A DNA stretch of 22,251 bases from a virus. Under the pieces are notes generated by a model. The model ran no database searches and was not told where the DNA came from. It saw nothing but the letters and a program-made list of their open reading frames with translations. The stretch lies in IMG/VR virus record IMGVR_UViG_3300023049_000204, positions 1 through 22,251 of that record, one strand, 5' to 3'. Positions within the stretch are counted from its first letter, which is position 1. Each line of letters starts with the position of its first letter. Positions 488 to 22,201 of the stretch are shown here, one piece after another. The translations under genes and the position numbers were made by a program.

Positions 488-894
488 GCGAAACCGCCGT
501 CGATGTGGTCCCAGCCGCCGGCTCGGACCCAGTCGAGGACGGCCTCAGCTCGAGGCCGGGCGAAGCCGCCGAGGACCCGCACGACTATGGCCTGCTCTCC
601 GAGGTTCAGCGGGTAGACCAGTGACGCGCGGTGGTCCGTCTCCCAGCGCACCTTCCACTGCTCTGCCCGCACGGACGTGATCTGGTTCGGCGGGACGTAC
701 CTGACAACAAGTCCGGCGGCGATGTCGTGGGCGACATCGGGGACGGTAGACAGTCCGACGACGTGACAATTGCCGTCAATGTCGACCCTCGGGCGGGACT
801 GGTCGTCTGGGTCGGGGAGGACGCGGACGCGGACGCCTGCGACGGTGGCGTGACCCCACCCGCCGTTGAGCTTGTCAATGTTGGAATCGGTCAT
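484..894 (-). CDS. Hypothetical protein, 136 aa
   Basis: The ATG at 894 overlaps the methyltransferase stop by ATGA and the gene's own stop overlaps the next start by ATGA, so it belongs to the translationally coupled early operon. I do not recognise the family. The protein is soluble with no membrane segment or cysteine cluster. It has a beta-rich middle (for example L-V-V-R-Y-V and K-V-R-W-E) and a C-terminal helix A-E-A-V-L-D-W-V-R-A-G-G-W-D. It sits between a DNA methyltransferase and a probable nuclease, so a role in DNA processing is possible, but nothing in the sequence shows one. Confidence 0.85.
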   Translation of the reverse strand: MTDSNIDKLNGGWGHATVAGVRVRVLPDPDDQSRPRVDIDGNCHVVGLSTVPDVAHDIAAGLVVRYVPPNQITSVRAEQWKVRWETDHRASLVYPLNLGEQAIVVRVLGGFARPRAEAVLDWVRAGGWDHIDGGFA

Positions 895-1799
895 GCGGCA
901 CCGCCGACGTCGAGACGGGGCGCGTCGCGGATGGTCTGCGCCCTCCGGAGGTTCTCGACTCCGGTCGACCAGTACGACGGCTTCAGCTCGCAGCCGATGA
1001 ACTTGCGGCCCAGCCTGACCGCTTCGTGACCTTCGGAGCCGATCCCCGCGAACGGGGACAGCACGACTTCACCCGGGTTGGTGTAGAGCCTCACAACACG
1101 TTCGATCAGGTCAAGTTGGAGCGGGCAGATGTGGCGCTCGTCGGCGTCCTCGCGTGCTTGGGAGACGTTGAGGGTGTTGGACTCGCGGATCCCCGTCCAG
1201 ATCGGCCGTGCCCACTCGATCCAGTCCTCGCGGGTCATCTGTCCGTTCTGGACGGGCAGGACCGGAGTGATGTTGTCGCCGGGCTTTCGGAACAGCAGCA
1301 AGTAGTCGGCCAGCGCCATTCGGTTGTTGGTCGAGTCGCGTTCGAGCGTCGCGAACATCAGGGCGTGGGCCTTGGTACGGATCGCTTGTGCCTGCGGGTC
1401 CTTGTCGATGGTGTTCTCGCCGTGGAACCACCATCCGTCGGCGATGTGCTGGCGGATCACGTCGCCGCGGAAGTCGGTCAGGGCGTTGAAGCCGTGGGTG
1501 GACTTGGTGGTCGTGAGCTGCTGGACGTGGACTGCGGCGATGCGTCCGGGCTTGAGGGTGCGCAGGACGTGGCGGGAGATGAACCCGTAGTGTTCGAGGA
1601 ACTCGTCGCGGGTGGTGGAGTTGCCGAGGTCACGTTCGGACGGGCTGTAGGTGAACAGCGACGCGAACGGCGGCGAGTAGACGGCGAGGTCTACCGAGCT
1701 GTCTTCGACCTCGTCGAGACGTTCGCACGAGTCGCCGAGCATCATCGTCCAGCCGTCTCCGGTGGTCGTGTCGGTCGCGTACCCGGTGGTCGCTGTCAT
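891..1799 (-). CDS. DNA amino-methyltransferase, beta-class (N6-adenine or N4-cytosine)
   Basis: This 302-residue protein transfers a methyl group from S-adenosylmethionine to an exocyclic amino group in DNA. The catalytic tetrapeptide SPPF (motif IV, residues 42-45) comes first, and the AdoMet-binding motif SPFAGIGSEG (about 248-257), followed by F-I-G-C-E-L, comes near the C terminus. That order is the beta class. SPP[YF] is common in N4-cytosine and some N6-adenine enzymes, so the target base is not decided. The middle (residues about 100-220) would hold target recognition. The ATG at 1799 overlaps the helicase stop by ATGA, so enzyme and helicase are coupled. No cognate restriction endonuclease is seen nearby, consistent with an orphan phage enzyme that modifies the phage genome against host restriction. 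Confidence 0.88.
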   Translation of the reverse strand: MTATTGYATDTTTGDGWTMMLGDSCERLDEVEDSSVDLAVYSPPFASLFTYSPSERDLGNSTTRDEFLEHYGFISRHVLRTLKPGRIAAVHVQQLTTTKSTHGFNALTDFRGDVIRQHIADGWWFHGENTIDKDPQAQAIRTKAHALMFATLERDSTNNRMALADYLLLFRKPGDNITPVLPVQNGQMTREDWIEWARPIWTGIRESNTLNVSQAREDADERHICPLQLDLIERVVRLYTNPGEVVLSPFAGIGSEGHEAVRLGRKFIGCELKPSYWSTGVENLRRAQTIRDAPRLDVGGAA

Positions 1800-3085
1800 G
1801 CTGGTGCCTTCGCTGTGATCGGTGATCGGGCTGCAAGCTCGTCGACGAGCCAGCCGGCGTTTCGTGCCTTGCGGTTGACGTTGTCGACGATCTGTCGTTC
1901 GAGCTCGGACACGACGACCCATGCGGTGACGTCGCGGGTCTGCCCGTACCGCCAGCACCGACGGACGGCCTGGTAGTAGGTTTCGTAGGAGTCGCCCAGT
2001 CCGCAGAACGTCATCTTCGAGCAGTTCTGGAAGTTCATCCCGAACCCGGCGATCGACGGTTTGGTGACGAGGACCCGGACATGTCCGGCGACGAAAGCGT
2101 CGATGGCGTCTGCCTTGTCCTCGGCGGACCATGACCCTTCGACGTTGACGGCGTCGTCGATTGCGGCGGTGACCTGGTCGGCTTCGTCGTTCAGTCCGCA
2201 CCAGACGATGTGCTGGTCGGCGTGGCCGGTCGTGGCGACTGTTGCTGCCACTCTGGCTTCGAGGGTCTGGCGGCGGACGTTGGCCCGTCCGCCGACGCCG
2301 CCGAGGTCTGTCGGGAACAGCTGGCCGGGGGCTTCGATGTTGACGGGCACCACGACGTCGAGGACGTGCAACGGTGGCAGCAGATAGCCGTCGTCGCGGC
2401 CGCCGACGTCGGACGGATAGCGGGCCGCGACGATCCACGTGGCCATCCAGTCGAGCATGGGCTTGCGGGCGTGCCCCTTGAGCCGCCACGCGCCGACGTC
2501 TTGGTCGTTGATGAAGTAGGCAGCGAGCATCTGTGCCCGGTCCATCTGTCCGAGCCATTCGGCGTGGTTGACGATCTCTGCCACGTCGTTGGGTGCCGGC
2601 GTGGCAGTCGCTGCGAGCTTGTATGGCACGTCGCGGCACGAGTCGGTGAGCATCATGCGGGTCTTGGAACCGACGGCCTTGAGGATCGACGACTCGTCGA
2701 GAACGACGGCGCCGTAGGTGGACGGGTCGACATGCTCGGCCATCTCGTAGTTGGTGATGTGGACGCCGGGGCCGGGGAGTGGTCCGCGGGTGTAGGTGAC
2801 GTCCAGGCCGATCTTGCGTGCTTCGGCGATCGTCTGGCGTGCGACGGACAAAGGCGCGATGATCAGCGAACGGTCGGACACGAGCCGGGCCCATTCGAGC
2901 TGCTGGAGTGTCTTGCCCATCCCGCAGTCCTGGAACAGTGCGACGCGGCCTGTGCGGCATGCCCATGCGACGACGTACGCCTGCCAGTCGTGCAGCAGAT
3001 CGTGGACTTCGGACCGGTTCACGTCGACACCGACGGGAGGTGCGACGCTGCGCTTGCGTGACATGAACTCTGCGTAGGCGGTCAT
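1796..3085 (-). CDS. SF2 (SNF2/DEAD-like) ATP-dependent helicase
   Basis: This 429-residue protein has the helicase motifs in order: H-D-W-Q near residue 32, Walker A CGMGKT (54-59), motif Ia I-I-A-P-L-S (75-80), motif II DESS in V-V-L-D-E-S-S (127-133), motif III ATATPAPN (159-166) and motif VI QAVRRCWRYGQ (372-382). Motif VI of the form QxxRRxxRxGQ and the DES box fit SNF2-related phage helicases. The protein hydrolyses ATP to move on or remodel DNA. At about 430 residues it is a minimal two-lobe enzyme without accessory domains. The ATG at 3085 overlaps the previous stop by ATGA. Its stop overlaps the methyltransferase start, suggesting joint synthesis for replication, recombination or modification. 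Confidence 0.9.
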   Translation of the reverse strand: MTAYAEFMSRKRSVAPPVGVDVNRSEVHDLLHDWQAYVVAWACRTGRVALFQDCGMGKTLQQLEWARLVSDRSLIIAPLSVARQTIAEARKIGLDVTYTRGPLPGPGVHITNYEMAEHVDPSTYGAVVLDESSILKAVGSKTRMMLTDSCRDVPYKLAATATPAPNDVAEIVNHAEWLGQMDRAQMLAAYFINDQDVGAWRLKGHARKPMLDWMATWIVAARYPSDVGGRDDGYLLPPLHVLDVVVPVNIEAPGQLFPTDLGGVGGRANVRRQTLEARVAATVATTGHADQHIVWCGLNDEADQVTAAIDDAVNVEGSWSAEDKADAIDAFVAGHVRVLVTKPSIAGFGMNFQNCSKMTFCGLGDSYETYYQAVRRCWRYGQTRDVTAWVVVSELERQIVDNVNRKARNAGWLVDELAARSPITAKAPA

Positions 3086-3402
3086 GCGGCACCTCGTGGG
3101 TGGTCGGGTGTGGGCCGGTCGCAGTCCTGCCAAGCCGTCTCGAGCGCGAGCAGGGCAGCCTGGACCTGTCCCGCTGCGGCGCTGGTCTGCCCGGCGCGGG
3201 CGTACGACGCGGGCTTGCGGCGGGCGATGTCGACGGCACGCCGTGCGGACAGGAACCGTGCGACAGCGTCGTAGAGCGCGTCGTCGGGCGGGCAGGTCAG
3301 GTGGACCCAGCCGTCGTACGGGTTGGACCGGTAGACCTCCACGCCGGGAGGGACGGGCTTGGTGCAGCGGGCGCAGGACGTGGCGAACCGGGCGACCGTC
3401 AT
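3082..3402 (-). CDS. Small CxxC...HxxC putative zinc-binding protein, 106 aa
   Basis: The N-terminal third holds C10-x2-C13 and H34-x2-C37, a spacing expected of a compact zinc ribbon. Between them is a V-E-V-Y-R-S strand, and the sequence G-W-V-H-L-T-C surrounds the second pair. The rest is alanine- and arginine-rich and predicted helical. The start and stop both overlap neighbours by ATGA. It precedes the helicase, so it may bind DNA or a replication partner, but that is inference. No named family is recognised with certainty. Confidence 0.85.
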   Translation of the reverse strand: MTVARFATSCARCTKPVPPGVEVYRSNPYDGWVHLTCPPDDALYDAVARFLSARRAVDIARRKPASYARAGQTSAAAGQVQAALLALETAWQDCDRPTPDHPRGAA

Positions 3403-3683
3403 GCCGTGTCCCCGTCGTTGTGACGTTCGAGGAGCTGGCGTAGTTCACGGTCGTCGAGGTAGCCCCACGGCTCGTCAAGCAGCGGCGACAGGTCGATCTG
3501 GTGACGGCGTGCCGCAGCGAGCAGCGCCCCGGCCTGTGCGGTGGCGTCACGCGCTTCGGCACGGGCACGTGACGCGACCCGTACGGCCTGCCGGCGAGAG
3601 ATTTCGGCACCGATCAGGGCACCGCCGAGGACCATCAGCACGATGATCGACATCAGGAACGTCCAGGACGCGGCCGGTGTCAT
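3399..3683 (-). CDS. Membrane-anchored coiled-coil protein, 94 aa
   Basis: The ATG at 3683 overlaps the stop of the repeat protein by ATGA, and the stop overlaps the next start by ATGA. Residues about 7-27 form one hydrophobic segment (W-T-F-L-M-S-I-I-V-L-M-V-L-G). It is followed by a long charged, alanine/arginine-rich helix (about 29-60) and an acidic C-terminal part with R-E-L-R-Q-L-L-E-R. A single N-terminal membrane span with a cytoplasmic helical tail is the simplest reading. No function is recognised. Longer in-frame readings upstream run through the alanine-repeat DNA and are not real. Confidence 0.8.
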   Translation of the reverse strand: MTPAASWTFLMSIIVLMVLGGALIGAEISRRQAVRVASRARAEARDATAQAGALLAAARRHQIDLSPLLDEPWGYLDDRELRQLLERHNDGDTA

Positions 3684-4492
3684 GCTGCACCCACGGTCTG
3701 CCGGCAGGTGGCGAGGGCGGCCGGGCTGTGAGGGCCGGCCTCGATCATGTCGCACAGCAGCGCCGCTGCTGAGTGCTGGAGCACGGTGACCGTCGGCTCC
3801 AGTGCGGCCTGAGCAGCGTCCCAAGCAGCGGCCTGAGCAGCGTCCTGAGCAGCGGCCTGAGCAGCGTCCCAAGCAGCGGCCTGAGCAGCGGCCTGAGCAG
3901 CGGACCAAGCAGCGGACTGACCAGCGGGCCGACCAGCGGGCCGACCAGCGGGCCAAGCAGCGGCCTGACCAGCGGCCCGAGCAGCGGCCTGAGCAGCGTC
4001 CCAAGCAGCGGCCTGAGCAGCGTCCCAAGCAGCGGCCTGACCAAAGGCCCGAGCAGCGGCCCGAGCAGCGGCCCAAGCAGCGTCCACATGCGGCGTCGCC
4101 GTCGTCAGACTCGCATCATCCGTGATCGGGTCAAGAGCGCGGAGGGCTGTTGCGTGGCCGTCCAGACCGGCGAGGTCCAGCCACATCGGCGTGTGGACCC
4201 GCACCAGCCAATCGCACGCCATCCACCCGCGACGATCCGCGTCCGCTGCCGTCCCTGCCGTGACAGCGAGGGCGGGGACGAACGGCAGCAGCATGTTCCT
4301 CTCCTGCTGCGACCGCATCCCGTCGTTCCACACCCGAGCGAACGCTCCGAGTGTCGTGTCGGCACAGGCGGGGTGGTCGCTGTGTGGCTCACCAGCCCAC
4401 CATGCGACCGCCTCGGCCAGGCAGACGCCGTCGTCTCGCGTGGCGTGTTGGCCGTGGGTCAGGGTCAGGGTGTTGAGGTCAAGGGTGGTCAT
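3680..4492 (-). CDS. Conserved-type hypothetical protein with Ala/Trp/Gln tetrapeptide-repeat tail, 270 aa
   Basis: The start chosen is the ATG at 4492, which overlaps the previous stop by ATGA; the in-frame extension upstream is arginine/proline-rich shadow. Residues 1-135 look like a folded domain: C-L-A-E-A-V-A-W-W-A-G-E-P-H-S-D-H-P-A-C around residue 25-44, then L-G-A-F-A-R-V-W-N-D-G-M, and later a W-M-A-C-D-W segment. From memory, this A-G-E-P-H-S-D-H-P pattern recurs in uncharacterised phage and bacterial proteins; I give no function. Residues about 135-227 are a repeat of four-residue units of type A-A-[QWR]-[AD], probably a long alanine-rich helix. A short non-repeat C terminus (about 43 residues) follows. 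The gene lies upstream of a membrane-anchored coiled-coil gene. Confidence 0.85.
   Translation of the reverse strand: MTTLDLNTLTLTHGQHATRDDGVCLAEAVAWWAGEPHSDHPACADTTLGAFARVWNDGMRSQQERNMLLPFVPALAVTAGTAADADRRGWMACDWLVRVHTPMWLDLAGLDGHATALRALDPITDDASLTTATPHVDAAWAAARAAARAFGQAAAWDAAQAAAWDAAQAAARAAGQAAAWPAGRPAGRPAGQSAAWSAAQAAAQAAAWDAAQAAAQDAAQAAAWDAAQAALEPTVTVLQHSAAALLCDMIEAGPHSPAALATCRQTVGAA
3812..4085 (-). repeat. 12-bp tandem repeat array coding for tetrapeptide units
   Basis: About 23 units of 12 bp run through this stretch. On the plus strand the unit is of the form GCAGCGgccTGA or GCAGCGtcccAA, and two types often alternate to give a 24-bp higher-order period. Because 12 is divisible by 3, several frames on both strands stay open here, which explains the long spurious frames. 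On the coding strand the units translate to AAQA, AAWD, AARA, AGRP and similar. A subset near 3915-3955 (gaccagcgggcc) codes for A-G-R-P units instead, suggesting local unit conversion and expansion. Confidence 0.9.
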
Positions 4493-4746
4493 GCTGCACC
4501 GTCCATCGGCCGGTCGGCCATGAGGTCGGGACGGGACATGTCGTCCAGCACCGGACCGAGGGGCAGGTAGTCGCGCAGCTCGACCAGCGCGCCGATGAGA
4601 CGGTCGACCTGGTACGGGTCGTTGTGCTGCAGCGACACGGTGTCGTTGAGCCACACGGCGCCGTACCGGTTCTGGTCGGGGTCATGCAGAGCGACGCGGA
4701 TGCGGTCGCTGTCGGTCCAGTACGCGGCGGATGACGAGTTCTGCAT
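4489..4746 (-). CDS. Hypothetical protein, 85 aa
   Basis: The ATG at 4746 is the first gene start after a 183-bp hairpin-rich intergenic stretch, and the stop overlaps the repeat-protein start by ATGA. The protein is soluble and acidic, with a beta-like N-terminal half (I-R-V-A-L-H-D, Y-G-A-V-W-L) and a helix V-D-R-L-I-G-A-L-V-E-L-R-D-Y-L. I do not recognise a family. The ribosome-binding site is weak (GAAAG about 10 bases upstream), so expression may depend on the leader structure upstream. Confidence 0.8.
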   Translation of the reverse strand: MQNSSSAAYWTDSDRIRVALHDPDQNRYGAVWLNDTVSLQHNDPYQVDRLIGALVELRDYLPLGPVLDDMSRPDLMADRPMDGAA

Positions 4747-6802: not shown

Positions 6803-7435
6803 TCAGGTGACGGTGAACCCGGCGATCTCGGCCTGACGGCGTGCGTACCAACGGAAGTCGCGGTCCATGCTCCGTGCGGCCTTCGCGGCCTCGAGGGCGT
6901 ACCACTCTGCTTCCTTCCACTCGAGCACGTCAGGTGACGTCGGCTGCAGCAGGGCACGGACCTGTGGCAGCAGTGCGTACAGGTCGTCGCCGGGGCAGGC
7001 GGTCTGGCCGTCGTCGCGGTGCCCCTTGACCGTGCAGTCGGCGGTGACGAGCTGCTTGTCGCGCAGGAACCAGATCAGGCCGGCGAGGTCACCGGGCAGG
7101 GTGTCGGGCACGGGATGCTGGTTCTGGAAGTTGCCGAGCACTGCGATGCCGACCGACCCGTCGTTGTGGCCGGACACGTGCGCACCGACATGCTTGGCGC
7201 CGCGGCCCACCGCAGCCTGCCGGGCGGCCGGGTCGACCATGAAGTTGTAGCCCACGTCGGTCCAGCCTCGGCCGTCCTGGTGGAACTTCTGGATGGCAGC
7301 GAACTCGGCCGGCCCGCCACCGAGCCGGCCGCCGGTGTGATGGATGTAGATGGTGTCGGGAAGGGACGTCTGGTCTGTCGGGTGGCCCTTCGCGGGGCGT
7401 GCGTTCCAGTCGCCGCGTGACAGCAGAGGGATCAT
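6803..7435 (-). CDS. Endolysin: N-acetylmuramoyl-L-alanine amidase (amidase_2 / PGRP fold)
   Basis: This 210-residue enzyme cuts the bond between N-acetylmuramic acid and L-alanine in peptidoglycan. The zinc ligands of the T7-lysozyme/PGRP fold are visible: the histidine pair in I-Y-I-H-H-T-G (32-33), H139 in V-K-G-H-R-D and C147 in T-A-C-P-G. W-T-D-V-G-Y-N-F (58-65), with the conserved Tyr, and H-V-S-G-H-N-D-G-S-V-G-I-A (86-98) are also family signatures. The catalytic domain spans about 1-160. The last 50 residues are helical and acidic/basic (W-K-E-A-E-W-Y-A-L-E-A-A) with no known cell-wall-binding repeat. There is no second catalytic domain and no mycolylarabinogalactan esterase gene nearby. 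The ATG at 7435 has AGGA about 10 bases upstream. Confidence 0.95.
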   Translation of the reverse strand: MIPLLSRGDWNARPAKGHPTDQTSLPDTIYIHHTGGRLGGGPAEFAAIQKFHQDGRGWTDVGYNFMVDPAARQAAVGRGAKHVGAHVSGHNDGSVGIAVLGNFQNQHPVPDTLPGDLAGLIWFLRDKQLVTADCTVKGHRDDGQTACPGDDLYALLPQVRALLQPTSPDVLEWKEAEWYALEAAKAARSMDRDFRWYARRQAEIAGFTVT

Positions 7436-7468: not shown

Positions 7469-7498
7469 AAAATAGCAGAGTCAGACGGTGTAGGTCGA
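7469..7498 (-). promoter_or_regulatory. Weak candidate promoter before the endolysin
   Basis: On the minus strand TGCTATTTT gives an extended -10 (TATTTT at 7474-7469 with TGC before it), with TCGACC 18 bp upstream (four of six bases of TTGACA). It lies across the stop of the repeat-protein gene and the 45-bp gap before the endolysin, one of the few A+T-rich spots in the late block. It would give the lysis genes their own start of transcription. The match is modest. Confidence 0.3.
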
Positions 7499-7777
7499 CG
7501 CCGTCGCGGTCACCACGCCCAGCCTCAACACCTCGAACGACTCGAACGGCTGGACCGCCTGTGCGGTCGTCGGGCCGCCGTTGGGACGGACGTACGTGCC
7601 GGACCGCAGGGACACCACGCCCAGCCGCAACACCTCGAACGGCTCGAACGGCTGGACCGCCTGCGTGGTCGTCGGGCCGCCGTTCGGCCGGATGTGCGTG
7701 TCCATGCGGGCTGTGACACCCGCGCCAAGCGGTTCCGGCTCGACGATCCGCCCGCTTTCGCCGTAGTCGACGTTCAT
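7481..7777 (-). CDS. 98-aa protein built on two near-identical 34-residue repeats
   Basis: The ATG at 7777 overlaps the previous tail gene's stop by ATGA. After a 29-residue leader, residues 30-55 and 64-89 are the same 26-residue block (R-P-N-G-G-P-T-T-x-Q-A-V-Q-P-F-E-x-F-E-V-L-R-L-G-V-V) with only two substitutions. A short variable linker ending in Thr-Tyr follows each copy, giving a period of 34 residues. The block alternates a Gly/Pro turn with beta-prone strands, suggesting a small repeated beta structure. It sits between the tail fibre genes and the endolysin, so it may be a virion tip or fibre accessory. No family is recognised. Confidence 0.82.
   Translation of the reverse strand: MNVDYGESGRIVEPEPLGAGVTARMDTHIRPNGGPTTTQAVQPFEPFEVLRLGVVSLRSGTYVRPNGGPTTAQAVQPFESFEVLRLGVVTATASTYTV
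7511..7690 (-). repeat. Direct repeat, two 78-bp copies with 102-bp period
   Basis: Copies at 7511-7588 and 7613-7690 differ at about six of 78 positions by my reading, some of them silent. The identity between copies is much higher than needed for protein function alone, so the duplication is recent or kept alike by recombination. Together they make most of the 98-residue gene. Confidence 0.9.
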
Positions 7778-11993: not shown

Positions 11994-12442
11994 CAGGCCA
12001 GCCGGCCGTCAGTGAGGATCACGTCGATGGCGGCACGGGCGACGTTCTGTGCGAGCTGGTACTCACCGACGTCGATCGCGACGACCAGGCACGAGCCGGA
12101 CACGGTCGACGCGTCGGGGAACGTGTACGTGCATGTGACCTCGCCGACGGTGTGGGCCAGCAGATTGGCACGCAGGTACTCGACGTTGTCACGCAGCCCG
12201 GCACGGCCGTTGGCGTACGGGGTGCCTGCCTGGTTGTTGTCGCCGAACACGTACATGCCGAGCTGGGCCCGCAACGCGTCGCGGGTGCGGGCGCGCGGAA
12301 GGACACCTGCAGCGCCCGGGATGACGAAGTCTGTGCCGCGGGACCGTTCACCGAGCAGCGGCTGCGGGTCGACGACACGCCACGCCCCGTCGATCGCCAG
12401 CTCGACGCTGTTGATCGTGAGGAACTCGGGCTGGTCAGCCAT
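11993..12442 (-). CDS. Distal tail (Dit-like) minor tail protein, 149 aa
   Basis: The ATG at 12442 lies inside the last codons of the tape measure gene (8-bp overlap). The short protein is directly downstream of the tape measure, where the distal tail protein normally lies. It shows I-N-S-V-E-L-A-I-D-G-A-W-R-V-V at the start, L-L-G-E-R-S-R-G-T-D-F-V-I-P-G-A-A-G at 29-46, and a later beta segment with S-G-S-C-L-V-V-A-I-D-V. The G-T-D-x-x-I-P-G-A-x-G pattern is typical of actinophage minor tail proteins (from memory). It should form the ring that joins tube and tip. Confidence 0.78.
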   Translation of the reverse strand: MADQPEFLTINSVELAIDGAWRVVDPQPLLGERSRGTDFVIPGAAGVLPRARTRDALRAQLGMYVFGDNNQAGTPYANGRAGLRDNVEYLRANLLAHTVGEVTCTYTFPDASTVSGSCLVVAIDVGEYQLAQNVARAAIDVILTDGRLA

Positions 12443-14165
12443 AGGTCAGCTCGAGCATCCGCAGCTTCGCGACGACGTCGTCGGCCATCTGCTGTCCGGT
12501 CGTGTTGACGGTCACGTTGAACTGTGACCCGGACGCCGCAGACTGCTTGTGGGTCGGCAGGACCGTCTCGCCTGCCATCAGCACAGCAGGGACCTCAAGG
12601 CCGGGAGGGCCGGGCACGATCCCGCCGTCGTGGAACGCGATCGACGAACCGATACCGCCGACCGGCCGGGGAGGGGTGTACGACGACCCGCCACCGGTGG
12701 ACCCACCAGAAGGCCGGTTGCGTGCCGGCGGCCGTGAACTGCTACCGCCACCACCGAAGCTGTTCTCGAGGTCGGCAAGTTCACCGGCGATGGAGCTGTT
12801 ACCGACGATCGGGATGTTCGAAAACGCCGACCGGATCGACCCGACAACGCCGGAAGCGAACGCTTCACCGGCCTTCTCACCGAGGGTCTGCATGGCCGGA
12901 ACGACGGTCTGCTGCAGGAACGGAAGGCCAGAGTTCGTCCACCACGGCACGACAATCTGGTTCCACAGGTTGACGATCTCTTCCCACGCCTGCCCTGCTG
13001 CAGCACCGATCCCGCCGGACTTGAACGCGGCTTCGATCCGGTCGAGAGCGCCGATGAACACCGGCTCGAACTCGGAGATGAACGACTCGCGGACGTCACG
13101 GAAGATGCCTGTGAGACGGACCTTCCAGTTGTCGTAGGCCGTGTCCGTGACACGACCCATCGTCCCCTCGACTTCTTCCATCGACCCGACGACGCCGCCC
13201 ATCGCAAGCACGACCTCAGGGCCGACGTCCCCGACGATCGAACCGAAGATTTCGACGGCGGCCTGCCCTCGAGCGATCGGGTCGTCGATCCCTTCAAGGA
13301 CCTCGGTGACCTCACCGAACGCGACTATGGCGTCGTCGCCGCCAGAGGCGAGACGCTGCACCATCTTCTCACCGTCGATGCCGATCGAGTCCAGCGCGTC
13401 GGACACCTTCGCGGTGTCCTCGGTGACCCGGGTGAACATCTCACGCAGGTTGTCTGCGAGCCGGTCGGCGTTCTCTGCACCAGCGTCGAGGCCGGCACCG
13501 AGCATCACACCGATCTGTGCGCCGTCGAGGCCGAGCTCCTTGAAGTCGTTGGCGTACTCACGGAGCACGTCAAGGAAGTCGTCACCGCGGTCTGCACCGT
13601 TGACGAACCCGGCAGCGATCGCGTCGAACGCTTCTTCGGAGTCGTCGACCAGGTCGTTGGCGATCATCTGACGGACGGCCTGCAGGACGTCCATGACGTC
13701 CGCCTCGAACACGTCCGCCAACGTCATCGCGTTCTCGGTGATGGACTGCACGGCACCGTCGCCGACCTCGCCGATGTCTCCGAGCTGTTCCTGCACTTCG
13801 GACACGACCGACAGGACCTCGTCGTAGCTTTCGCCCCACGCACCGGCGTACACCTCGGAAGCGATCCTGCCGGCGCGTTCTGCCTCTTCGGGGGTGAGCA
13901 GGAACCGGGCGGCCATGATGTCGCGGGACGCTTCACGGTTCAGTGCTTCGCCGACGGACGCGGCGAACACGCCCGCTGCTGCACCACCGGCGAGGGCGGC
14001 GGCACCAGCGATCCCGCCGAACGCCGCCTTGGCGGCTTCGCCGATCTTGTCGAACGACCCCTCGGAGTCGGACGCGAACTTGTCGACCTCACGTGTCGCA
14101 CGGTTCAGGGCCCGCTTGAGCTTGTCGGCGTCCGCAGCGATGATGAACTCTGCTGTGCGTGCCAC
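12435..14165 (-). CDS. Tape measure protein, 576 aa
   Basis: The start is GTG 14165, two bases after the chaperone stop (TGACGTG). The protein sets tail length and is ejected with the DNA. An N-terminal helix binds the chaperone or tail (A-D-A-D-K-L-K-R-A-L-N-R-A-T-R-E-V). A hydrophobic Gly/Ala segment follows at about 46-70. The long helical middle includes the recurring tape-measure motif S-I-G-I-D-G-E-K-M-V followed by G-G-D-D-A-I, V-L-E-G-I-D-D-P-I-A-R and A-A-V-E-I-F-G. The C terminus has a Gly/Ser/Pro linker and F-H-D-G-G-I-V-P-G-P-P-G with L-M-A-G-E-T-V-L-P, also typical. At 576 residues and about 1.5 angstrom per residue, the tail would be short, near 85 nm. Confidence 0.95.
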   Translation of the reverse strand: MARTAEFIIAADADKLKRALNRATREVDKFASDSEGSFDKIGEAAKAAFGGIAGAAALAGGAAAGVFAASVGEALNREASRDIMAARFLLTPEEAERAGRIASEVYAGAWGESYDEVLSVVSEVQEQLGDIGEVGDGAVQSITENAMTLADVFEADVMDVLQAVRQMIANDLVDDSEEAFDAIAAGFVNGADRGDDFLDVLREYANDFKELGLDGAQIGVMLGAGLDAGAENADRLADNLREMFTRVTEDTAKVSDALDSIGIDGEKMVQRLASGGDDAIVAFGEVTEVLEGIDDPIARGQAAVEIFGSIVGDVGPEVVLAMGGVVGSMEEVEGTMGRVTDTAYDNWKVRLTGIFRDVRESFISEFEPVFIGALDRIEAAFKSGGIGAAAGQAWEEIVNLWNQIVVPWWTNSGLPFLQQTVVPAMQTLGEKAGEAFASGVVGSIRSAFSNIPIVGNSSIAGELADLENSFGGGGSSSRPPARNRPSGGSTGGGSSYTPPRPVGGIGSSIAFHDGGIVPGPPGLEVPAVLMAGETVLPTHKQSAASGSQFNVTVNTTGQQMADDVVAKLRMLELTYG

Positions 14166-17150: not shown

Positions 17151-18473
17151 TCAGAACGTCGGGGCGACCAGGCCCGTCCCGGAGATCACCGAGAACGCCG
17201 TCGGGTACCGGCCGGCCGTGTACGCGCTGTAGCCGTACACGACGGCCTTCACCGTCAGGTTCCCACCGGCGGTCTCCTCGAACGTGAGCGACCGCGGTGC
17301 GGCAGCCTCGTCGGAGAAGAAGTGGCTGTCCGCCATCCGCGCGACGATGATCGCGTCCTCGTCGGTGTCGCCACCGAGGTTGGTCGGGATGTTCGCGTCG
17401 GTGTAGACGTTGAGACCCAGCAGGGTCCCGACGACCACGCCGTAGCCGTTGGACGACAGCAGACCGGCAGCATTCTGCGGACCGTTCCCGTTCGGCACGA
17501 TGATCGGACGGGCCGACGCGTCGACGTTGGCGAGGAGGAACGCCCACCGGCGCGGGTGCATGAAGATCGCGTCGGGGGCCGCGAAGCGGTTCGACTGGAT
17601 CTGCTGCACTGCGTCAGCGAGCTTGGGGTACAGCTCAGCGACGGTCGGGGTCGCGTCGGTGTAGGTCACCGAGTTGATCCCGGCCGTGCTCAGGACACCG
17701 AGGTGGGTGCCGGACGTGCCGTCAGCGCCGATCGCCGAAGCGTCGACCGCGGTGGCGTAGGCCGACGCGAGGTCGGCGAAGATGATCCGGTCGACGTTGG
17801 TGCCACGCTCGATGGACTGGCGGGAGATGTCCTGCTGTCCAGCGAACGTCCGCACGTTGATCGCGAGAGTGGTCTCGTCGAAGTTCGTCTCGGACACCGC
17901 AGCGTTCTCGGACGCCTGCGCTGCTGCGCTGGTCCCGGTCGTACCGCGAGGGATGTTGAGGACCATGCCGTCGTTCGGCAGGTTCTCCTGAGACGACGCG
18001 GCGCACCAGGGCATCCCGGCACGGACCACCTCGGCGTACAGCTCGGTGAGGAACTGCGGCACGACGAGGGCACCGAACGCCGAGGTGCCGACGTCACGGG
18101 TCTCGTGGGCCTCCGAGAACCGACGCAGACGGTCGGACGCGGTGATGTCGCCCTTGTTCGACCGGATCTGGTCGTACACCCACGAACGGTTCGAGTTCGG
18201 GGCGTACAGGTCAGGCTCGACGACACGGTCGACCTTGGGGGCGGGCTTCTCGGCGGCGCGGGTGAGCGACACCTCGATGTCCCGGAGCTTGTTGGCGCGC
18301 TCCTCGGCGGCGTCGACCTTGGTCTGCAGGTCGTTGACCTCGTCAACGGTTGCGTCGAGGTCGGCGTCGCTGGTGGCGTCGTCGTCGATGGCGGAACGGA
18401 GCTCGACCTTGGCGGTCTCGAGCTGCTCACGCAGGCGGGCCACGCGGGCGGCCTGCTCGTCGTACTTGGACAT
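17151..18473 (-). CDS. Major capsid protein, HK97 fold, 440 aa
   Basis: The start is ATG 18473, with AAGGAGG 8 bases upstream and one base after the protease stop. An earlier in-frame ATG is rejected because it lies inside the protease gene. Residues about 1-75 are a charged coiled coil (A-A-R-V-A-R-L-R-E-Q-L, then L-Q-T-K-V-D-A-A-E-E-R-A-N-K-L), the delta domain that guides assembly and is removed by the protease. The mature part begins near 95-125 (V-G-T-S-A-F-G-A-L-V-V-P-Q-F). It contains I-P-R-G-T-T, the stretch Q-D-I-S-R-Q-S-I-E-R-G, A-P-D-A-I-F-M-H-P-R-R-W, and the terminal strands. There is no separate scaffold gene. It forms the icosahedral shell. Confidence 0.96.
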   Translation of the reverse strand: MSKYDEQAARVARLREQLETAKVELRSAIDDDATSDADLDATVDEVNDLQTKVDAAEERANKLRDIEVSLTRAAEKPAPKVDRVVEPDLYAPNSNRSWVYDQIRSNKGDITASDRLRRFSEAHETRDVGTSAFGALVVPQFLTELYAEVVRAGMPWCAASSQENLPNDGMVLNIPRGTTGTSAAAQASENAAVSETNFDETTLAINVRTFAGQQDISRQSIERGTNVDRIIFADLASAYATAVDASAIGADGTSGTHLGVLSTAGINSVTYTDATPTVAELYPKLADAVQQIQSNRFAAPDAIFMHPRRWAFLLANVDASARPIIVPNGNGPQNAAGLLSSNGYGVVVGTLLGLNVYTDANIPTNLGGDTDEDAIIVARMADSHFFSDEAAAPRSLTFEETAGGNLTVKAVVYGYSAYTAGRYPTAFSVISGTGLVAPTF

Positions 18474-18474
18474 G

Positions 18475-19146
18475 CTAGTCCTCCTTGGAAAGACTCTTGA
18501 TGAGCTTCTGGGCACGGAGTCGTGCCCTGCTGATGGAGTCGTCCTCGGTGCTGGCAGGCGTGGACGTGACGTCCGGGGCCTTCCCTGCGGGCGTGGACTG
18601 CTCGGGACCGTCAGGTCCCGAGGGCTTGGAGCGGTACTCGGCGAGCATCTGCTCGAGCCGGTCCGCGGTTCTGTCGTTGAGGTCCTCGACGGACCGTGCC
18701 ACGACGGTGGTGTCCTCGTACCACGGGTAGGTCACGACGGACACGTCGTGCAGTGCTACCTCACGCAGCTCGCGGACCCCGTCGGCGGTGTAGCCGTCCT
18801 GGACGACCCGGAACCCGAACGACATGCCGGTCATGTCGCCGCGCTTCACGGCAGACAGCACGTCGCGGGCCAGCTGCGAGTCCGGGTCAAGGTCGGCCTT
18901 GACCATCAGGCCACGGTCGTCGGTGGACAGGTCAAGGGTTCCCGACTTGGTGCGGGCCAACGGCAGACCGTCGTGGTTCAGCAGCAGCCGGACGTCGGCA
19001 CCGTGGTTGAGGGTGCGCTTGAACGCTGTGCGGGTGACGACCTCGCCGTGGGCGGGAGAGTCGAACACGGCGGCGTAGCCGGACAGCCGGAGCGTGTCAC
19101 CGTCGGTGTCGGCCCGAAGTTCGGTGTCGATGTAGTGGCGTGCCAT
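18475..19146 (-). CDS. Prohead maturation protease, HK97 family (S78), 223 aa
   Basis: The ATG at 19146 overlaps the portal stop as TGATG with GGAGG upstream. The catalytic residues can be placed: His58 in L-L-L-N-H-D and Ser109 in G-M-S-F-G-F. The third position is in L-H-D-V-S-V-V-T-Y-P-W-Y, where an Asp (134) stands where most family members have Glu. Residues 20-45 hold G-Y-A-A-V-F-D, the family's typical N-terminal strand. The last 60 residues are charged and Ser/Thr-rich, probably self-cleaved. It cleaves the capsid delta domain during head maturation. Confidence 0.94.
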   Translation of the reverse strand: MARHYIDTELRADTDGDTLRLSGYAAVFDSPAHGEVVTRTAFKRTLNHGADVRLLLNHDGLPLARTKSGTLDLSTDDRGLMVKADLDPDSQLARDVLSAVKRGDMTGMSFGFRVVQDGYTADGVRELREVALHDVSVVTYPWYEDTTVVARSVEDLNDRTADRLEQMLAEYRSKPSGPDGPEQSTPAGKAPDVTSTPASTEDDSISRARLRAQKLIKSLSKED

Positions 19147-20321
19147 CAGAGGTCCTCCTCCGGGTCGGGCTGGGCGATGTCTTCGAACGGTGGGAGGTCT
19201 TCGCTTGCACGGACCTCGTTGACGGTCAGGAAACCGGCCTCAAGCGCGGTCGCGTAGGACGCGAACCGGGCGGACGTGTCTGCACGTAGCAGCCCGTCGG
19301 TGCGGAACCGGACCCGCTGTGTGCCCGGCAGCTCGAACGACAGTGCGTCCTCGAGGGTGCGGAGCCACAAGGCAAGACCGAACTGCAGGAACGCCGCGTT
19401 GCGGCCCTCCACGGTCGCGTAGGTGATCGACGACCCCTTCGTGGACCCGCCGATCAGCTCGACAGGGACGCCGAACACGCGGGCGATCTGTGACACCGAC
19501 CATTCCTGCGCCTCGAGGAACTGTGACTCTTCCGGGGCGACTTGGACCTGCTGCCACGACCAGTCACCGCCGAGGACGGCAACGTCACCGGAGTCGACCG
19601 ACGAACGCCACCTGCGCTTGACCTCGTTGGCCTGCTCGGACGTGAGCTGGGCCTTGTTCTGCAGCACCGACGACGGGTGCGCACCGTTCCCGAACCACGT
19701 GGCCGAGAACTTCTCGGCAGCGAGGCCGACACCGATCGACTGTGCTGCGTAGTTGATCGGCGACATCCCGATCGGCGAACCGGGCCCGGTGTACGCACCG
19801 ACGTGCCACGTGTCCGCAGTGGACACGGTCCGTGGCTTCATCGCGGTCGAACCCTGCCCCTGACGGACCTGCAGGTACACCTCGCCACGGTCGTTGACGC
19901 ACGGTTCGACGTAGTCCGGGTGGATCAGACGGACCGCCGTCGGGTAGCCGGACACGGGGTCGCGGGACATGATCTCGCCGTACACGTTGCCGCGGAGCAG
20001 CAGCGACGTGACGACCTGGTAGGTCCACGTCGCCTGTGTCTGGACACCGTCAGGACGGCGCAGCAACGCAGGCTGTGGCAGGACGTCCACAGACCCGTCG
20101 GGGCGGGACCTGACGACCTCGACAGGCATCGTGGAGATGGTCGACGCGATCACACGGACACACGCCCACACCGCAGAGTGCCGCAGCGCGGTCTTGTCGT
20201 TGACCAGCACACCAGAGTTCACGTACCGGTTGGAGCGCCGCTCGGACAGGACCGCGACAACCTCGGGGTCTGCTCCTGCACGCTGCTCTGGGTGGCCCGT
20301 GAGACGTCGTATGAGACTCAC
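19146..20321 (-). CDS. Portal protein, HK97 family, 391 aa
   Basis: The start is GTG 20321, overlapping the small membrane gene's stop by GTGA. Hallmarks are S-A-V-W-A-C-V-R-V-I-A-S-T-I-S-T-M-P-V at about 49-67, L-L-R-G-N-V-Y-G-E-I at about 108-117, P-I-G-M-S-P-I near 180, and the long C-terminal helix region with L-A-L-W-L-R-T-L-E-D-A-L-S-F-E-L. It forms the dodecameric ring at the vertex through which DNA enters and leaves. Length is in the usual range. The stop region supplies the ribosome-binding site of the protease gene. Confidence 0.95.
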   Translation of the reverse strand: MSLIRRLTGHPEQRAGADPEVVAVLSERRSNRYVNSGVLVNDKTALRHSAVWACVRVIASTISTMPVEVVRSRPDGSVDVLPQPALLRRPDGVQTQATWTYQVVTSLLLRGNVYGEIMSRDPVSGYPTAVRLIHPDYVEPCVNDRGEVYLQVRQGQGSTAMKPRTVSTADTWHVGAYTGPGSPIGMSPINYAAQSIGVGLAAEKFSATWFGNGAHPSSVLQNKAQLTSEQANEVKRRWRSSVDSGDVAVLGGDWSWQQVQVAPEESQFLEAQEWSVSQIARVFGVPVELIGGSTKGSSITYATVEGRNAAFLQFGLALWLRTLEDALSFELPGTQRVRFRTDGLLRADTSARFASYATALEAGFLTVNEVRASEDLPPFEDIAQPDPEEDL

Positions 20322-20458
20322 GTGTCACCACCCATCAGATAGCCGATTGCGACGAGGACAGCACCAAAACCGACCAGAACCGTCGCGATTCCACCGAACA
20401 GCCACAGGCCCGCGAAGAACGCGACCAGTCCGACCAGCTCGAGCACGTTGGACGTCAT
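20318..20458 (-). CDS. Small two-helix membrane protein between terminase and portal, 46 aa
   Basis: This frame starts at ATG 20458, overlapping the terminase stop as TGATG, and stops at 20318, overlapping the portal start by GTGA. The exact fit between two genes is strong evidence of translation. The protein is almost wholly hydrophobic with two spans (about 7-24 and 26-43: V-A-F-F-A-G-L-W-L-F and V-L-V-G-F-G-A-V-L-V-A). Small membrane proteins at this place occur in other actinophages, with unknown role. Confidence 0.75.
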   Translation of the reverse strand: MTSNVLELVGLVAFFAGLWLFGGIATVLVGFGAVLVAIGYLMGGDT

Positions 20459-21951
20459 CAGAACACCTGTGCCATCGCTTGCTCGGGAGAGGGAGACATG
20501 TCGGGCGCTGCGACCTCACCGACCGCAAGCGCCGCAGCGATCAGCGCCGACCCGTCACCCGAGATCGGACGGTCGTACACCCACGCACCTGACGCGTTGC
20601 GTTGCCGTGCGTCACCAACGGCCTTGGTCAACGCGGGATGGTTGCGGTGCCGCAGCCGGTCGGTGCCGACCAGGTCGTGGAACTTCCCACACGAACCGAT
20701 CAGCGTCGCGTAGTTCCCGACCGTGATCTCGAGACCAGCCGAGGTCATGTCAGGCACGACGGTCGCAGCCTGCGACTTCGCATCCAGCACGATCGCTGTC
20801 GGGTCGTGCCGGGCAGCAAGCTCGAGGAGACGTTCCGGGAGCCAGTCAAGGCCCTTGCGATGTTCGACGACCTCGACGTGGACACGCCCATCAGAGCGGA
20901 ACCCTGCAGCGACGATCGTGGCCCACCTGCGGTCACGTGAAGCGTCAACACCGAACGCCACCGGCCCGTCGATCTGTGACTCGGCGTCGACCAGCGAATC
21001 CCACAGGTGCTCAGGGATCAGCCGGCCTGCAGACGGATCGGTAGACGGCCAGTCACCCACACCAAGGTGTTCCACTGCGAACCCGACCGGCGACAGTGCA
21101 TGGAGCTCGTCGGACAGGAACGACGGTGCGATCCGGCGGCCCAGCGCAGGGTTCGCGACCGCCCACTGTGCCGGGTCACGAGACACGTCGTCAGGGGCGT
21201 TCTCGTACACGTCCTCGTCGACCGACCACTCGAAGTACGCCAGCCTGGCGTCCTCGCCCTTCATCGCAGTCTCACGGACCCGGGTCAACGCCAGCCCGTT
21301 GAAATGCTCCGACTGGTTCACCGGCGACGACGCGAACCAAACCTGCGGGTTCGGCTGCGCCGTCAACGTCGGCAGCATCGCGTTCATGGTCTCCTCGGCA
21401 AGGTCGTACGCCTCGTCAAGGATCACACAGGACGCCGAGTAGCCACGTGCCGAGTTCTTCGACCGTGCCACGAACGTGACCTCACGCCCGTCGGTGGTGC
21501 GTATGCCTTCACGGCCCGACCCCATCGACAGGCCACGGTCACCGACACGCCGCCACAACGGCGGACAGTCACGGACCGTCTGCACCAGGTCGAGGAACGT
21601 GCGGCGGGCAGTGGAGAACTGGTGAGCGGAAAACACCGTCAGGTCGTCGTCCAGGAGGAACAACGACGCAAGCATCCGGGCGACCAGCGTGGCCGTCTTG
21701 CCGTTCTGCCGCGGGATCACCAGACCCACCCGGAACGCCGACCACTTGCCGTCTGCCTGTTCACCAAGCGCTACCTGCATCACGTGCTGCTGCCACGGGT
21801 CCAGATGCAAACCGGCCAACGCCGCCAGCTCAACAGCCTCGGGCCCGGACGACGTCACCGACGTCGGTGACAGCTCAACCCGTGGCGTCTGACTTCCGAG
21901 CAGCTCGACGGCGGGTGAGATCGTCAACGCCATCCCCTGCCATCGTCGCAT
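20458..21951 (-). CDS. Terminase large subunit (ATPase and nuclease)
   Basis: The motor that cuts and packages phage DNA. From the ATG at 21951 it is 497 residues; an alternative ATG at 21933 (MALTIS) would remove six residues and looks equally likely, as neither has a clear ribosome-binding site. Counting from that second ATG, Walker A is I-P-R-Q-N-G-K-T (73-80), Walker B is C-V-I-L-D-E-A-Y-D (169-177) and the coupling motif lies near V-W-F-A-S-S-P (198-204). The RNase H-like nuclease has acidic residues in G-V-D-A-S-R-D (around 330) and I-V-L-D-A-K-S (around 384). The start overlaps the small upstream gene. Confidence 0.95.
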   Translation of the reverse strand: MRRWQGMALTISPAVELLGSQTPRVELSPTSVTSSGPEAVELAALAGLHLDPWQQHVMQVALGEQADGKWSAFRVGLVIPRQNGKTATLVARMLASLFLLDDDLTVFSAHQFSTARRTFLDLVQTVRDCPPLWRRVGDRGLSMGSGREGIRTTDGREVTFVARSKNSARGYSASCVILDEAYDLAEETMNAMLPTLTAQPNPQVWFASSPVNQSEHFNGLALTRVRETAMKGEDARLAYFEWSVDEDVYENAPDDVSRDPAQWAVANPALGRRIAPSFLSDELHALSPVGFAVEHLGVGDWPSTDPSAGRLIPEHLWDSLVDAESQIDGPVAFGVDASRDRRWATIVAAGFRSDGRVHVEVVEHRKGLDWLPERLLELAARHDPTAIVLDAKSQAATVVPDMTSAGLEITVGNYATLIGSCGKFHDLVGTDRLRHRNHPALTKAVGDARQRNASGAWVYDRPISGDGSALIAAALAVGEVAAPDMSPSPEQAMAQVF

Positions 21952-22201
21952 CTATCAAATCCAGCTCGGCGAGCAACGCCCGCAGCTCGCGGGTCAACGC
22001 CGGCAGGTAACGCTCCGAGTCGCACACGTCGATCGCCGCGGCCAGCTTCACCGCAGACGACTTCAACGTCGCAGCACGCCCCTTGAGCAGCGCCTCGACG
22101 GTCGTCGTCGGATCGACCTTCACCTTGCAGGCCCGCTTGTGCGAAGACAGCCCCGCGGGCGCCTTCGAGATAAACCCGCAGTCGCACACCAGCCGAGCCA
22201 T
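21875..22201 (-). CDS. Probable terminase small subunit with zinc-finger-like N terminus, 108 aa
   Basis: The gene lies directly upstream of, and overlaps, the large terminase, the usual place for the small subunit. The N terminus holds C6-x-C8, H21 and C25 (C-D-C-G-F-I-S-K-A-P-A-G-L-S-S-H-K-R-A-C), which could bind zinc and contact DNA. A helical part follows (V-E-A-L-L-K-G-R-A-A-T-L, then L-T-R-E-L-R-A-L-L-A-E-L-D-L-I-D). The ATG at 22201 is chosen, but the same frame remains open to the window edge, so a longer protein is possible. Assignment is by position and size; no direct family motif is certain. Confidence 0.7.
   Translation of the reverse strand: MARLVCDCGFISKAPAGLSSHKRACKVKVDPTTTVEALLKGRAATLKSSAVKLAAAIDVCDSERYLPALTRELRALLAELDLIDATMAGDGVDDLTRRRAARKSDATG

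Follow-up and report, generated by a model that had tools for sequence, protein, structure and literature searches.

In HsdS of type I restriction, TAEL tetrapeptide repeats are encoded by in-frame 12-bp units, form a helical spacer and vary in length by whole units. Two or three copies stand between two DNA-recognition domains. In spider silk genes, tandem repeats reportedly undergo intragenic homogenisation and are flanked by non-repetitive ends (PMC3933166). Imm5, a toxin-immunity protein, is described as mostly alpha, with conserved R and D residues (PMC3482391). The stretch of DNA analysed here, called the window, is a virus record of 22,251 bases (GC 67%) in which one gene contains an array of 12-bp units.

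Nearly all likely genes of the window lie on the minus strand. The terminase, portal, head, tape measure and endolysin genes are followed by the array gene, then by a helicase and a DNA methyltransferase:

20458-21951, putative terminase, taken from reading the sequence
19146-20321, putative portal, taken from reading the sequence
17151-18515, major head protein, PHROG match
12435-14165, tape measure protein, PHROG match
6803-7435, putative amidase endolysin, taken from reading the sequence
4489-4746, minus strand, 85-aa gene of unknown function upstream of the array gene, 4-bp overlap
3680-4492, minus strand, array-bearing gene, PHROG_13065 family member, 270 aa
3399-3683, minus strand, 94-aa gene downstream of the array gene, membrane segment predicted by eye, 4-bp overlap
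3082-3402, minus strand, 106-aa protein of unknown function, 4-bp overlap
1796-3103, minus strand, SNF2/DEAD-type DNA helicase (Helicase_C; phrog_62), start codon not fixed
891-1820, minus strand, N6/N4 DNA methyltransferase (PF01555; phrog_67), start codon not fixed

The array-bearing open reading frame is real and runs on the minus strand from an ATG at 4492 to 3680 (270 aa). It shares 4-bp ATGA overlaps with both neighbours (4489-4492 and 3680-3683), which bears out the tight operon of the preliminary description, and would encode a small accessory protein of the early region. An actinobacterial host is likely: the nearest matches of the capsid protein are in mycobacteriophages (37.7%), and those of the helicase-methyltransferase DNA are in Arthrobacter, Gordonia and Mycobacterium phages. 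Elsewhere in the window, a 98-aa open reading frame before the endolysin (7481-7777, minus strand) has an internal duplication with two near-identical copies of RPNGGPTT(T/A)QAVQPFE(P/S)FEVLRLGVV, and two short 21-bp tandem duplications occur at 12881-12922 and 21962-22006 (scores 56 and 60).

Profile searches match PHROG_13065 with the N-domain alone (E 0.0039) and with the whole protein (E 0.0079), values that are weak alone. On sequence comparison, membership is nevertheless clear through relatives, because the N-domain is up to 58-60% identical to family members (pairwise) and 35 of the 43 aligned members match the profile at E up to 0.01. The profile, annotated as of unknown function, covers the N-terminal motif region and is silent on the array. 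More than 120 family members were collected (5 relatives by direct scan, 52 viral and 20 genomic loci by alignment, more in three follow-up scans), mostly from phages and often beside replication and recombination genes. They include Caulobacter phage Cr30 (AGS80886) and, by predicted structure, Gordonia phage OneUp gp80, flanked by RecE-like and RecT-like genes. The family alignment gives the N-domain pattern GxH..G.C..EAVAW.AGEPHSD.P.C ... ND ... R ... R.....D...R...P, of which the motif C..EA..W.AGEPHSDHP.C occupies residues 24-43 of the window protein. Thirteen residues are invariant among 23 aligned N-domains (G14, H16, C24, E27, E35, H37, P41, C43, D57, R65, R88, D94 and R98), with rare exceptions in the wider family set.

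Pfam has no match to the whole window protein at E up to 10, and neither Pfam nor NCBIfam has a model for the family. Imm5 is matched in Pfam by none of the 43 members, nor by the window protein at E up to 10. An A-D-x3-R-V look-alike to Imm5_like in the N-domain is not supported as homology (hhalign against an Imm5_like-type linker, probability 0.2, E 0.27). The window protein has no collagen (G-X-Y) match; collagen-type profiles are matched by one of the 43 members, presumably through the composition of an AAG-type array. On the host interaction or defence evasion that the preliminary description raises as a possibility, PADLOC gives no match for the window protein and one weak hit for the 43 members (LeoBC, E 0.0017).

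Of the named PHROGs, those met most often among 113 proteins encoded beside family members are ParB-like, helicase, methyltransferase, exonuclease VIII, RecT and replication initiation; these tallies, like those for Pfam, are raw frequencies with no formal background comparison. No partner gene is conserved among the phage neighbours. No toxin family appears among the listed Pfam and PHROG hits for the window neighbours and the 113 proteins, which come from general profile searches.

The array itself was described from the outset as about 23 in-frame 12-bp units, and both Tandem Repeats Finder and codon reading agree. The program reports one array (3804-4082, period 12 bp, 23.2 copies, score 313, no indels), and the protein divides as follows:

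4118-4492, minus strand, conserved N-terminal helical domain, residues 1-125 (family alignment and model, pLDDT 95-98 over most of it)
3809-4084, minus strand, 23 in-frame 12-bp units, residues 137-228, third bases C-T-T-G in 23/23 units
3917-3952, minus strand, PAGRPAGRPAGQ (AGRP) block, residues 181-192, at the predicted hairpin tip
3740-3805, minus strand, conserved C-terminal helix LEPTVTVLQHSAAALLCDMIEA, residues 230-251, recurring in frame past the arrays of relatives

The unit reads [GCC/GAC/CCC/TCC]-GCT-[GCT/GGT]-[TGG/CAG/CGG], plus one TTT. Five of the six frames stay open throughout the array, so the openness of a frame does not by itself argue for coding. The window holds no second copy, and each locus carries a single array gene.

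An AlphaFold2 model built with 43 sequences (mean pLDDT 88.7, pTM 0.80) predicts helices in the N-domain to residue 118, then at 126-178 and 190-251, separated by a non-helical or broken stretch at 179-189, where the PAGRPAGRPAGQ block is situated. The pLDDT is 95-98 in the N-domain, ∼67-85 in the array arms and 94-96 in the C-terminal helix. The two long helices probably run antiparallel, as a hairpin that returns to pack its end against the core; this reading draws on the predicted secondary structure, the pLDDT and the conservation of the C-terminal helix, not on contacts measured in the coordinates. This modifies the helical rod of about 90 residues first envisaged: a long helical element is indeed predicted, but as a hairpin leaving and re-entering the core. 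Similarly, the A-G-R-P block is present, but as a predicted tip and not as a mere interruption of the array. The stripe of Trp and Gln on one face of a helix does not survive, since a period of 4 at 100 degrees per residue drifts by 40 degrees with each unit (2.6 turns across all 23), and relatives use periods of 4, 3, 2 or mixtures. The model of an array-less Planctomycetota relative is a compact core (pLDDT 95.7). For both the window model and this core, Foldseek finds no PDB match at E up to 0.001, and the best VIA-align Z scores (5.9 and 5.7, respectively) are in the noise range of helical bundles; a search of solved structures by sequence gave nothing credible.

The model bears on the idea of a low-complexity Ala/Gly-rich tail that shields an early phage protein against the ATP-dependent proteases of the host or aids its solubility, only length and composition being of importance. 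Composition is indeed kept where order and period are not, and the module is found on other domains. Against this, the array is predicted to be ordered and not to end free, since a conserved C-terminal helix closes the hairpin and re-enters the core; Trp and charged residues are also retained in most units. Such a tail is very unlikely.

Arrays differ widely within the family. Most have period 4 and are of the AAWD type; others have period 3 (ADL in L020 and L055, AAG in L028) or period 2 (LDLA in L058 and L059), are mixtures of A, Y and D, or are missing. As a side observation, the N-domain preceding the period-2 (LDLA) or period-3 (ADL) arrays of L058, L059, L020, L055 and L118 is the same. 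On a tree of 128 N-domains, poorly resolved and with some short arrays labelled as none, array type takes 21 changes versus 41.9 in shuffles; it appears inherited yet repeatedly switched.

Array length turns over fast. N-domains that are 94% identical (L106 and L110) are followed by tails of 166 and 102 aa, 64 residues apart, and N-domains that are 88% identical (L024 and L026) by tails of 167 and 115 aa, 52 apart. Between close relatives unit order is scrambled and the flanks are kept, and almost every complete member retains the C-terminal segment in frame. Both the length variability and the retention of frame anticipated in the preliminary description are thus found. Most arrays come from metagenome contigs, and their order and length may partly reflect assembly error: 13 of 72 contigs end inside the array, the contigs of L007 (MT835534.1) and of 12 other family loci stop in it or close to it, and short-read assemblies often break inside such arrays.

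The array is absent from L002, L003 and the copies in Methylobacterium and Planctomycetota. Relatives lacking any repeat had been named as a refutation of selection on the array as protein; they exist, and they make the array an add-on that the fold does not need, selection as protein being still supported by the evidence below. In L002 (5318-6208), L003 and L044 the array-less gene follows the capsid gene. L002, L044, L004 and L005 lie near the major capsid gene, not in a replication region, and the complete ones have no array. Array-less chromosomal copies with shared neighbouring genes (by eye epimerase-like, acyltransferase-like and DedA-like) occur in six Methylobacterium species (L064, L066-L070), which suggests a non-phage role of the core domain.

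Variation within arrays also bears on selection. In the first 23 period-12 arrays, it is found at the second position of codon 1 (A or C) and at the first position of codon 4 (N of NGG). Replacement variant types number 130 and silent ones 17, where 29% silent is expected (p 4e-7). In 54 arrays fetched afterwards, third-position variation is absent from 25, part of the rest comes from internal phase shifts, and variants found in at least two units are silent in 43 of 257 cases against 30% expected (p 8e-7); both p values take variants as independent and are weakened by relatedness. Among 59 strict [A/D]AA[W/R/G] arrays, whose allowed amino acids are fixed by construction so that only the silent-site result is informative, 9 of 786 units depart from the third-base pattern of their own array; a single pattern is kept in 52 of 59, and 15 patterns exist across arrays. 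Orthologous N-domains show the opposite, differing mostly at codon position 3 (35/48, 33/49 and 44/71). Because arrays are nearly frozen at silent sites and N-domains behave in the opposite way, the data support protein-level selection together with rapid homogenisation of the array. The earlier suggestion that the array is selected as protein gains weight, its variation being almost wholly amino-acid-changing, and the length-variable rod selected as protein is upheld as a structural and evolutionary statement.

Under tolerated slippage, the array would have arisen incidentally as trinucleotides or 12-bp units expanded in a segment that accepts any helical Ala-rich filler, with selection acting only against unfolding of the protein. 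Periods (2, 3, 4 or mixed) and alphabets that differ widely among relatives, the existence of array-less relatives, the near-random order of units and the many arrays with one third base in most codons all fit this. Neutral mutation, however, should leave ∼29-30% of variants silent, whereas silent sites are nearly frozen and dozens of arrays vary at two replacement sites. Arrays of this type are also found on other domains, and slippage of this kind is unlikely. The same data dispose of several simpler ideas. A DNA-level site function (iteron, packaging, Chi-like) was rejected, as 15 third-base patterns and differing periods leave no shared DNA motif, as was selection only for DNA interruptions that stabilise the repeat, for which silent ones, nearly absent, would do equally well. 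A balance of D and R charges is no tighter than random.

The restriction of variation to two sites per unit could also point to targeted mutagenesis, for example by a diversity-generating retroelement. Yet reverse transcriptase was found in 0 of 21 records, some of which may be fragments, and in 3 of 14 control genomes; the window lacks a second array copy; and a single Arg codon, AGG or CGG, is used per array in 47 of 49 arrays, which random first-base mutation would not give. This origin is close to refuted.

The six unit types of the strict arrays are about equally common (AW 156, AG 143, AR 135, DW 123, DR 122, DG 107), and their order is nearly random. A hypervariable recognition module, reshuffled between phages and binding variable host or phage partners through a combinatorial surface of two variable positions per unit, would account for these two fixed positions on a backbone uniform even at silent sites, for the even unit types, for the scrambled order between close relatives and for the recombination genes common among neighbours. 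But stacking into a solenoid is impossible for a helical repeat of 4 residues, and the order is no more structured than random; we regard such a module as decidedly improbable.

The array is not confined to the family. A DNA-pattern scan that asked neither for silent uniformity nor for the N-domain found at least 120 stretches; among the 80 matches listed (L157-L236), many belong to proteins whose N-terminal domain is a different one, DUF7666 and Imm5_like being examples. In 50 arrays on other domains, 18 of 501 units are off pattern and a single pattern is kept in 40, the sorting by motif being approximate and a few of these rows being divergent family members. Judged from these sequences, the array is portable between domains. 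Such arrays are common in phage dark matter, where they occur on several domains, and a literature search found no paper describing them. A wider reading, held at low confidence, is that a portable and fast-reshuffling Ala-rich helical module sits on several unrelated small phage proteins as a tunable or recognition-diversifying arm, its D/A and W/R/G positions being kept polymorphic by protein-level selection and its DNA backbone homogenised to the last silent base.

The best explanation of the array, put forward tentatively, is an adjustable stalk or assembly arm. The core would be a helical domain made of residues 1-125 and the C-terminal helix 230-251. From it an Ala-rich helical hairpin is predicted to leave and return, with arms at about 126-178 and 190-229 and its tip at the PAGRPAGRPAGQ block. 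Recombination or slippage between 12-bp units would shift arm length by whole 4-residue units without frameshift, and rapid turnover would keep silent sites uniform within each array. Protein selection would maintain the residue mixture at two fixed positions per unit (D/A and W/R/G in most relatives, D/A/P/S and W/Q/R in the window array). The arm may serve as a packing surface or an adjustable spacer and so determine how far the core reaches or how it assembles; the core itself may bind a phage or host partner. Against a stalk stands the pLDDT of the arms, only ∼67-85, and the near-random order of units and the variable period speak against an exact ruler or one particular packing face. With replacement polymorphism alongside frozen silent sites, a repeat of the sort mostly written off as low-complexity bears a clean mark of strong selection at the protein level; in experiments, the number of units can readily be varied.

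The proteins nearest in their arrays are those with DUF7666 (PF24703) and Imm5_like (PF21805) domains, which bear the same [A/D]AA[W/R/G] 12-bp arrays with the same silent freeze behind an N-terminal domain different from that of the window protein. PHROG_13065 is the reverse case: it has the N-terminal motif region in common with the window protein, and the array is outside the scope of the profile. With spider silk, only the general evolutionary mode is comparable, silks being secreted structural proteins with long repeats. The HsdS TAEL repeats, like the window array, are 12-bp in-frame repeats coding for a helical spacer that changes length by units; unlike them, the window has about 20 Ala-rich units on a small protein.
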